Translations under genes and position numbers: made by a program | Shown: one piece after another, positions 49,569 to 52,048 of the stretch | Layout of the letters: each line of letters begins with the position of its first letter | Numbering within the stretch: position 1 is the stretch's first letter | Notes under the pieces: generated by a model | Told to the model about the DNA's origin: nothing | What the model saw: the letters and a program-made list of their open reading frames with translations, nothing else | Database searches by the model: none | Source of the DNA: Caldilineaceae bacterium | Lineage (GTDB): Bacteria; Chloroflexota; Anaerolineae; Caldilineales; Caldilineaceae | DNA: 64,000 nt | Direction of reading: 5' to 3' | Assembly (NCBI GenBank): GCA_022824025.1 | Contig: JAJEBF010000014.1 | Coordinates: 186,001-250,000 of the forward strand

Positions 49569-50174
49569 ATGCGAACCTTTGTCGCCATAGAAATCCCTCC
49601 CTCAGCAAAGCAACAGCTTCGAGCGCAGCAGGACCGCCTGCGTAACCTTCCCGCCTTGCGCGCCCGTCCCTCTCCTTTCCGCTGGACCGATCCCGAGAAA
49701 ATGCACCTGACGTTGCGGTTTCTGGGCGAAACGGAAGCCTCCCAGAGGCGTCAGATGCAAGAAGGGCTGGCGTCCACTGGCAATAGACATGCCCCCTTCC
49801 GGATAGCCCTGTCAGGACTGGGCAGTTTCAATTCCTGGACCAATATGAGAGTCTTGTGGGTGGGAATTACGGGCGACACAGACGCGCTGCAGGCAGTCCA
49901 GTCAGAGGTCGAACTGCTAGCCCGCCAAGCGGGATTCGCCCCCGTCACCAAGCGGTTTTCGCCTCACATTACCTTGGCTCGAACGGCCCGCCGTGCGCCG
50001 CGCGACGCGTTGCGCGCAGCCGCAAATCAGCTGCGCTCTGCAGCACAGGATGATGATCGCCAGATTAAGTTGGAATGGAGGGTAAACGAGCTGCTTTTCG
50101 TACGCAGCGTCCTGGGCCGGGGGGGCGCCCAGTACTTCAATCTTGCTACCTGCCCTCTCTCTGTCAGAAACTAA
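49569..50174 (+). CDS. thpR: RNA 2',3'-cyclic phosphodiesterase (2'-5' RNA ligase family)
   Basis: A 201-residue 2H phosphoesterase. It has the two H-x-T-L/x motifs: HLTLRFLGE near residue 45 and HITLARTAR near 134, plus RTFVAIEIP at the N-terminus and the RxxLGRGGAxY-like ending SVLGRGGAQYF. It opens 2',3'-cyclic phosphates on RNA ends; ligase activity is seen in vitro for relatives. It converges on the Amt gene, with only five bases between the stops. Confidence 0.93.
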   Translation: MRTFVAIEIPPSAKQQLRAQQDRLRNLPALRARPSPFRWTDPEKMHLTLRFLGETEASQRRQMQEGLASTGNRHAPFRIALSGLGSFNSWTNMRVLWVGITGDTDALQAVQSEVELLARQAGFAPVTKRFSPHITLARTARRAPRDALRAAANQLRSAAQDDDRQIKLEWRVNELLFVRSVLGRGGAQYFNLATCPLSVRN

Positions 50175-50179
50175 CTACC

Positions 50180-51664
50180 CTACTGGAAACGGTGTTCATC
50201 CACAGGCGCCTCAGCCGCCGACCGCGCGGCCATCACCTGCGAGTGCGGGCCATCCTCTCGCTGTGCCCTCGACTCCTCAGCCCGATATTGCGGCCGCCTC
50301 CGGACCTGCTCCTGCGGGGCTGCATCGTCACTGCCCCCGACCGCCCTGCCAATTCCATAGAAGAACAGCCCCAATGGGACGCAAATCAGGCTGCCGCTGA
50401 CAAAACCCCACAGGCCCAACCCGACAATACCAATGACCTGCGCCTGGATCTGACTGAAAAAGTCAGGGCGAAATCCCTGCGCCGCCAGCAACCCCGTCAC
50501 GCCCTGCCCCTGAACACCCAGATAGCTGTCCGCGCCTACCTGCTGCCAGCCGGCTCCGGCCGCGCCGTCGGCAAATAGGCCTACACCCAGCAGCCCAATC
50601 GCAGCCGGCAATCCCGCCACGGCGAAAATCCCGGCGCCGTCATCAAGGCGGAAAACTCTGTTTAGCGTGAAAGTCACAAAAGGAACTATGCCCCCGGCCA
50701 GCAGTCCAATCAACAACGCGCCTGTATGTCCGGGAAACGGCCCCGCGGCCAGTCCTGCAATCGCGCCCGCCGCCAATCCTCGGGCGCTCATCCCCGGGTC
50801 GCTTGTTCCCGTCACGAACCACGTGTAGAGCAACGGTACGGTCACACCGCCGGCGGCATAGAGCAGCCCATTGACCGCAGTTCGCACAGCCGTGAAGGCA
50901 TCCATGCCCGGCTGCTGAACAGGGCTCGCCCAAGTCCAGGCCAGCACCCCGGACATCACGAACATGGCCCCCACAACCGAGAGCAGCGGCAAATGCGCGG
51001 CCGGCAAGCCAGAGTGCGCGGCATCCGTCGGCGCATGCCTCCGCGGCGGCCAAACGAGCAGCGCGGCAAGAGACGCTGAAGCCGAGACCAGAAACACGGT
51101 GCCCCCGCCGCCAAAGTCGACCAATCCGTGCCCCAGGCCGGCATTCCGTCCCAGCGCTGCCAGCCAGCCTCCCCCCTGCACCCAATTGCCCGCCAGCGGA
51201 TAGACAATCCCGCCGAGTGCCAGCGCCACAATCAAGGTCGCGAGCGCCGGCGCCCGCCCCCGCAACGCCAGCATCGGCAACAACGCTGCCGCCGCCGCCC
51301 ACGGCGCATGGGCCAGAAACAGACCCATCGCTGTCGGCGTCGCTGCAGGACCCGTCAGAAACCAGCCCTCCAGCCCCGCTGCAATCCAGCCCACTCCCCA
51401 TCCTTCCGGAAGCGGGGTCCACCCCCGTAACAAGGTCGCTAGCTCAGGGTGATCTGTGTAAAGGAATCCAACGCTTCCGAACTGAAAGGCAAAGCCGAGA
51501 GCCCAGTATCCCACCCCCCCAAGACAAAAGGCAGCCAGTCCTCCCAGCGCTGCATCCCACGCCGTTTCTGCTCGCATCCCAGAGGCCGCGACCAGAATCA
51601 AGCCGGCCGGCAGCAGGAATGCAAAACCCGCCGCGGTCAGATGCCAGAAAAAAGTGCTGTCCAT
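50180..51664 (-). CDS. ammonium transporter (Amt) family protein without pore histidines
   Basis: A protein of about 494 residues with some eleven helices. Amt-like blocks are VQGGGWLAALG, GLVDFGGGGTV and DDGAGIFAVAGLPAAIGLLG, matching E. coli GGWLxxLGxxDFAGGTVVH and DDxxDVFGVHG. By-eye alignment puts Phe191 where the first pore His (H168) should be and Ala350 where the second (H318) should be. Both are normally needed for ammonium conduction, so function may be changed. The C-terminal 60 residues are polar and Arg/Glu/Gln-rich. No glnB/glnK gene is adjacent. The start is set at ATG 51664; a longer frame runs to 51721. Confidence 0.8.
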   Translation of the reverse strand: MDSTFFWHLTAAGFAFLLPAGLILVAASGMRAETAWDAALGGLAAFCLGGVGYWALGFAFQFGSVGFLYTDHPELATLLRGWTPLPEGWGVGWIAAGLEGWFLTGPAATPTAMGLFLAHAPWAAAAALLPMLALRGRAPALATLIVALALGGIVYPLAGNWVQGGGWLAALGRNAGLGHGLVDFGGGGTVFLVSASASLAALLVWPPRRHAPTDAAHSGLPAAHLPLLSVVGAMFVMSGVLAWTWASPVQQPGMDAFTAVRTAVNGLLYAAGGVTVPLLYTWFVTGTSDPGMSARGLAAGAIAGLAAGPFPGHTGALLIGLLAGGIVPFVTFTLNRVFRLDDGAGIFAVAGLPAAIGLLGVGLFADGAAGAGWQQVGADSYLGVQGQGVTGLLAAQGFRPDFFSQIQAQVIGIVGLGLWGFVSGSLICVPLGLFFYGIGRAVGGSDDAAPQEQVRRRPQYRAEESRAQREDGPHSQVMAARSAAEAPVDEHRFQ

Positions 51665-52048
51665 ACTTGTGAAATTCCTACGTCGGCCGTAATGATCAAA
51701 CAACTGTAGACCGGCAACCACCCCAGACAGTCGTGCATCGGGACACTCCCTTCCTCACGCCCGCGCCGCCAACATCATGCCGCGCGAACGCCTGCCCTCC
51801 AGCAGTCGTCCCGCGTATCCTGCTCACGCTGACAAGGATCGCAACCGGTATCGAATCAAATCATCCAGGAATGGCTACTCACCGCTTCAAGCATATCAGA
51901 CAATCAGAGCCCGAACAAAGCGCCCTCCCCGTCGCTCCGCCGTACGCCCGCCCCAAGGCGCCTCTCCGCCACGCCATCCACTGACCTCTAACCCTTGCAG
52001 TACACACCGCCGTCCCTCCAAACAAGAAACCCCGCCCAGACAGCAACC

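Follow-up and report, generated by a model that had tools for sequence, protein, structure and literature searches.

In the Amt/Mep/Rh superfamily, a pair of pore histidines (twin-His; H168 and H318 in AmtB) is treated as the family signature. AmtB variants that lack both histidines do not support growth on ammonia (PMC3647058), and the H168A/H318A variant binds NH4+ but does not transport it (PMC7447429). Variants with a single His become channels for hydrated NH4+ and K+ (PMC7447429, PMC9040831), and transport is abolished by the F215W substitution (PMC10433425). According to a 2020 paper on the two-lane mechanism, the pair varies in nature in one way only, with Glu replacing its first member in a number of fungal Meps (PMC7447429). 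In vertebrate Rh30, transport activity was lost and the proteins became antigens (PMC10433425). Ks-Amt5 has an ammonium site in its membrane core, comprising Q24, E31, N47, D50, and T51 (PMC5764959).

The window, by which we mean the whole stretch of 64,000 nucleotides analyzed here, encodes a 494-residue protein in an intact reading frame on the minus strand (Table 1). It was described in an earlier note, made from the DNA letters, as an intact Amt-family gene, and the frame, the domain profile, the fold, and the landmark motifs all agree with that description. Pfam PF00909 (Ammonium_transp) matches the protein at 102 bits (cut-off 23.2), placing it in the Amt/Mep/Rh superfamily, and GGWLxxLG, VDFGGGGTV, and DDGAGIFAVAG are all present. 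The score against the TIGR00836 Amt subfamily, 110.4 bits, lies below the cut-off of 343.3 and places the protein outside that subfamily. The AF2 model, whose input alignment had 18 rows and used distant viral-contig Amts only as filling, has 11 TM helices at moderate confidence (pLDDT 69.7, pTM 0.78). The low-E-value Foldseek matches of this model are Amt/Mep/Rh structures only, with Ks-Amt5 as the best (E 6.7e-13, TM 0.71/0.78), so the modeling proposed in the earlier note recovers the expected fold. The start MDSS/MDST is common to the orthologs, and the same intact frame in 16 of the 17 searched genomes of the genus rejects mis-assembly or a frameshift.

Table 1. Window positions of the Amt-like gene, its convergent neighbor, and the residues discussed in the text
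Feature	Position	Strand	Basis
Amt-like gene, 494 aa, 11 predicted TM helices (ATG at 51664; stop codon ends at 50180)	50180..51664	-	ORF + AF2 model + Foldseek
AGGA, ribosome-binding-like motif, 11 bases before ATG	51676..51679	-	read from sequence
Codon TTT, Phe191, AmtB H168 position	51092..51094	-	MAFFT, PDB-chain profile, hhalign
Codon GCG, Ala350, AmtB H318 position	50615..50617	-	MAFFT, PDB-chain profile, hhalign
Trp122, AmtB F107 position (outer Phe gate / S1), invariant in Caldilineaceae	51299..51301	-	alignment
Trp243, AmtB F215 position (inner Phe gate), invariant in Caldilineaceae	50936..50938	-	alignment
Gln163, AmtB W148 position (S1 site)	51176..51178	-	alignment
His119, AmtB Q104 position, invariant in Caldilineaceae	51308..51310	-	alignment
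Asp183, AmtB D160 position, kept in 125/127 lineage members, Glu in 2	51116..51118	-	alignment
His179, GHG motif before D160, 98% in lineage	51128..51130	-	alignment
thpR/LigT, RNA 2',3'-cyclic phosphodiesterase, convergent	49569..50174	+	profile match

Four alignment methods were used to place the pore sites: MAFFT with AmtB, phmmer against Sd-Amt1 and Ks-Amt5, a family profile against PDB chains including AmtB, and hhalign, whose profile-profile match has a probability of 100% (E 1.7e-60). All four put Phe191 on AmtB H168 and Ala350 on H318, the assignment that the earlier note had reached by eye. None of them places a His at either pore site and no frameshift was found; given the agreement of four methods, misalignment is rejected as the cause of the missing pair. 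The pore is changed more broadly than at the twin-His, as F107, F215, W148, W212, N216, T273, and Q104 are replaced too, with Val240 for W212, Thr244 for N216, and Leu305 for T273 among the further swaps. Both Phe gate positions (F107/F215) carry Trp, and of the S1 residues F107, W148, and S219 (here W122, Q163, and S247) the Ser alone is kept. The D160 and D310 equivalents are retained as Asp183 and Asp342, and the C-terminal GLD motif is absent from the tail.

Searches among Chloroflexota genomes found orthologs in the genus, the family, and throughout the class. Of the 395 genomes sampled from the class, 182 match the family profile at 1e-60 and about 151 at 1e-85, a level at which no ordinary Amt was seen. 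We extracted and aligned 160 distinct sequences, covering the lineage and ordinary Amts. Of the 127 distinct members of the lineage, 87 lack the pore His altogether, 16 retain a single one, and 24 keep the pair, and ordinary Amts in the same alignment are H/H in 31/31. All 31 also carry F107, W148, D160, W212, F215, N216, S219, and T273 in addition to H168 and H318. The commonest H168/H318 pairs in the lineage are F/A, F/F, F/T, and F/L, and an ionizable residue occurs at either site in none of the 87 His-less members. An isolated mutant is therefore rejected, since the His-less state is widespread in a Chloroflexota Amt lineage. Where the earlier note had asked whether relatives share Phe and Ala, the loss of both histidines is indeed shared but the pair itself is not fixed: Phe191 is constant in the genus, and position 350 is A, V, I, T, or C there and also S, G, or Q in the family. 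D160 is kept in 98% of the lineage and D310 in 95%, and the near-fixed hallmarks P19 (100%), H179 (98%), R295 (94%), and W373 of GxGW (95%) are all found in this protein. The GLD tail motif is present in 31/31 ordinary Amts versus 5/129 lineage members.

When the pore columns are left out of the tree, the lineage forms a group separate from the ordinary Amts (88 rows, SH-aLRT 99), and a mixture-model tree with fewer rows gives the same separation (SH-aLRT 98). The minimum number of state changes is 16 at the first His site and 12 at the second. Among the members that keep the twin-His, F107, F215, N216, S219, and T273 each occur in 0/24; because these members already lack the gate, the Phe gate was altered earlier and more widely than the histidines. 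The loss of both His is late, a single step in a longer series of pore changes, and the pore His were lost repeatedly in this old, vertically inherited lineage of the Chloroflexota class. Two deep-branching Amt-like proteins from other Chloroflexota classes, L070 (G062) and L071 (G071), branch off close to where the lineage begins and carry Q/H and V/Y, respectively, in place of the twin-His, so pore loss may reach outside the class. Viral contigs (L203–L228) carry distant marine Amts of about 25%–30% identity, and the pore His are retained in all eight of those included in the alignment (L203, L204, L205, L206, L208, L212, L214, and L222). Plasmid sequences gave no match to the Amt-like protein.

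Pairwise dN/dS within the genus is 0.06–0.18, with a median of 0.08. A relaxed, decaying paralog with no remaining function would account for the many drifted pore residues and for a close relative with a stop in its tail, but it is scarcely credible against these dN/dS values, the intact frames found class-wide, and the near-fixed clade-specific residues (P19, H179, W373, Q405, and Q409); for Caldilineaceae, pseudogene or decay is rejected by dN/dS. As purifying selection persists, the protein still has a job. That selection, together with the shared loss of His, gives good support to the altered function proposed in the earlier note. The stop concerned lies within the C-terminal tail only of a 94% identical ortholog (L004 7375–7482; also L014), so the tail looks dispensable. 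Tails of the lineage are usually 30–50 aa, and long C-terminal extensions (140–237 aa past the Amt core) occur in L041, L072, and L194.

Conservation within Caldilineaceae is uneven along the pore. The mouth residues H119, W122, H179, D183, and W243 are invariant, which gives the outer mouth a new but conserved form. For the outer-mouth set (equivalents of the S1 site, Phe gate, Q104, and D160), the mean conservation percentile is 24, a degree of conservation reached by 1.1% of randomly drawn position sets. The mean percentile for the inner-pore set is 71.5, i.e., more variable than average, and 98.5% of random draws equal or exceed its conservation. The corresponding means in ordinary Amts are 8 (outer) and 18 (inner). 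Although both sets of sites are based on the literature, they were picked with the per-site table already in view, and the comparison is accordingly descriptive. Since it is the mouth, rather than the inner pore, that selection preserves in Caldilineaceae, we favor a reading in which the protein binds at its outer site and does not transport.

The same conservation data bear on a second reading, in which the protein is a conducting pore for another species and works without proton-relay His. It could pass a neutral or apolar molecule (NH3, CO2, another gas, or methylamine-like amines) or hydrated monovalent cations. Such a pore is consistent with the passage of hydrated NH4+ and K+ through single-His AmtB variants (PMC7447429, PMC9040831), with the non-ionizable nature of every replacement, with the retention of D160 and the scaffold, and with the frequent status of the lineage protein as the sole Amt in its genome. 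However, translocation is lost in AmtB when both His are changed, conservation in Caldilineaceae is close to its lowest at the inner-pore positions, unlike those of a selective pore, and bulky Phe/Trp residues at three pore positions suggest blockage. We consider a conducting pore unlikely, though it is the strongest competitor of the favored reading.

The gene neighborhood was compared across 94 lineage loci. A convergent thpR lies downstream at 50 of these, a divergent Mut7-C gene upstream at 26, and a convergent phosphoribosyltransferase downstream at 23. As all are on the opposite strand, these neighbors show that the locus has been passed down vertically at a fixed position, and they do not form an operon with the gene; thpR is a conserved positional neighbor of the Amt-like gene rather than a functional partner. 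An operon or a PII partner is rejected, since the three neighbors mark position only, and no conserved neighboring signaling gene was found among the 94 loci. The genome that contains the window has two further Amts (L001 and L002) with complete twin-His pores. Both of its PII genes adjoin one ordinary Amt and none is beside the Amt-like gene; the tandem PII-type genes lie at G000:C39:235436-236254, directly beside the ordinary Amt at 236462-237637.

A sensor of the known Ks-Amt5 or Sd-Amt1 kind would fit the closest folds and sequences, which are those of Ks-Amt5 and Sd-Amt1. Both of these proteins keep the two His, though, and in the phmmer alignment the Ks-Amt5 site residues Q24, E31, N47, D50, and T51 fall on P19, A26, G42, A45, and F46. 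The tail is ∼50 aa and Pfam finds PF00909 alone, without a fused signaling domain; there is no fused kinase or cyclase and no conserved neighboring signaling gene. As both the site residues and a fused or neighboring signaling module are absent, a known-type sensor is unsupported, and we regard it as highly improbable. The three options offered in the earlier note (a different conduction mode, a sensor, or another substrate) therefore do not stand equal, and the sensor of known type drops away.

The distribution of ordinary Amts bears on whether the lineage still moves ammonium. Caldilineaceae that carry the His-less gene mostly also have ordinary Amts, and one group in this family, g16 (G031, G036, G540, and G598), has two or three ordinary Amts and no His-less protein. 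Outside Caldilineaceae, in genomes at least 90% complete and with an ordinary Amt defined by PF00909 at 1e-70, an ordinary Amt is absent from 29 of 44 genomes with a both-His-less copy and from 13 of 21 with a twin-His lineage copy (Fisher p 0.79), counts from which a few ordinary Amts may have escaped where contigs are fragmented or lacking. Absence of an ordinary Amt is thus independent of the His state, so a backup transporter does not explain the His loss, and the idea that such a backup allowed it is unsupported.

These counts lend some weight to an ammonium transporter or ammonia channel without twin-His chemistry, in which H119, H179, and D183 at the mouth would carry out deprotonation: the lineage protein is the sole Amt in 29/44 near-complete genomes outside Caldilineaceae, ordinary Amts occur independently of the His state, and D160, mechanistically central in AmtB, is kept in 98% of members. 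The F215W and double-His changes, however, each abolish transport in AmtB, ordinary Amts coexist in Caldilineaceae, and there is no GlnK-type tail, so that we rate this reading as improbable. A class-wide version, in which a lineage that is often the sole Amt moves its substrate without pore His by means of the Trp gate, the mouth His, and D160, is fairly improbable. Because the changes at both His and at F215 combine with a new S1 site, the AmtB mechanism is unlikely here, and we infer that deprotonation-coupled NH3/H+ transport is impossible for this protein. The role of the lineage in Chloroflexota is probably different from textbook ammonium transport.

Considering these results as a whole, we tentatively prefer, at somewhat less than probable, a non-transporting, outer-site-binding protein of the Amt fold, left after the ammonium path of AmtB had been dismantled. 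The residues of the Phe gate and its S1/S2 partners (F107, F215, N216, S219, and T273) went first, and the twin-His followed, many separate times. The selected part of the trimer would be its periplasmic mouth (H119, W122, Q163, H179, D183, and W243), which may bind a small ligand, ammonium or another small cation, by cation-π contact, while Phe191 and the two tryptophans would block the mid-pore; the protein would then have a binding or regulatory role in the membrane. Lack of both His in 87/127 members with no ionizable replacement, the missing gate residues in His-keeping members, the repeated loss, a median dN/dS of 0.08, conservation of the outer mouth beside a variable inner pore, loss of the GLD tail, the absence of a PII neighbor, and the behavior of the double-His and F215W variants of AmtB all speak for this model. 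Against it, no output domain was found and the tails are short and unconserved. A sole Amt homolog in many genomes would also be odd for an accessory protein, which leaves room for retained transport, and AmtB mutants need not predict the behavior of a pore rebuilt over long evolution.

The Amt/Mep/Rh fold family is known. A literature search of limited coverage found no bacteria in which a lineage has naturally lost both His time after time, and priority for this observation is not proven. The lineage shows at least 12–16 natural changes at the two signature sites. Its orthologs with both, one, or no His, in which the fold and D160 are kept, form a natural series for testing the roles of the histidines, the Phe gate, and D160, and group g16 would suit a natural comparison. 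For this lineage, the annotation “ammonium transporter” is unsafe, above all where the protein is the sole Amt in the genome.

With E. coli AmtB, the protein shares the 11-TM fold, the D160 and D310 equivalents, the glycine scaffold (GGGWL, DF.G), and Q..Q in TM11. It differs in having no twin-His, Phe gate, or N216/T273, in a Gln for W148, in an extra LGHG loop before D160, and in the absence of a GLD tail and a glnK partner. The AmtB H168A/H318A laboratory mutant likewise has neither pore His, and it binds NH4+ without transport, but all its remaining pore residues are intact. Ks-Amt5 (6eu6) and Sd-Amt1 (8qj3), the closest PDB matches by both fold and sequence, are named sensor or receptor Amts that keep both His, and the membrane-core site and kinase domain of Ks-Amt5 are absent here. 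Fungal Mep1 and Mep3 also depart naturally from the twin-His, but at the first His only and with an ionizable Glu in its place. Vertebrate Rh30 (RhD/RhCE) probably also lacks the pore His. It is a branch of the superfamily reported to be without transport activity (PMC10433425), and although it belongs to the Rh proteins of vertebrate red cells and not to bacterial Amts, this loss of activity makes it a precedent for a non-transporting branch.
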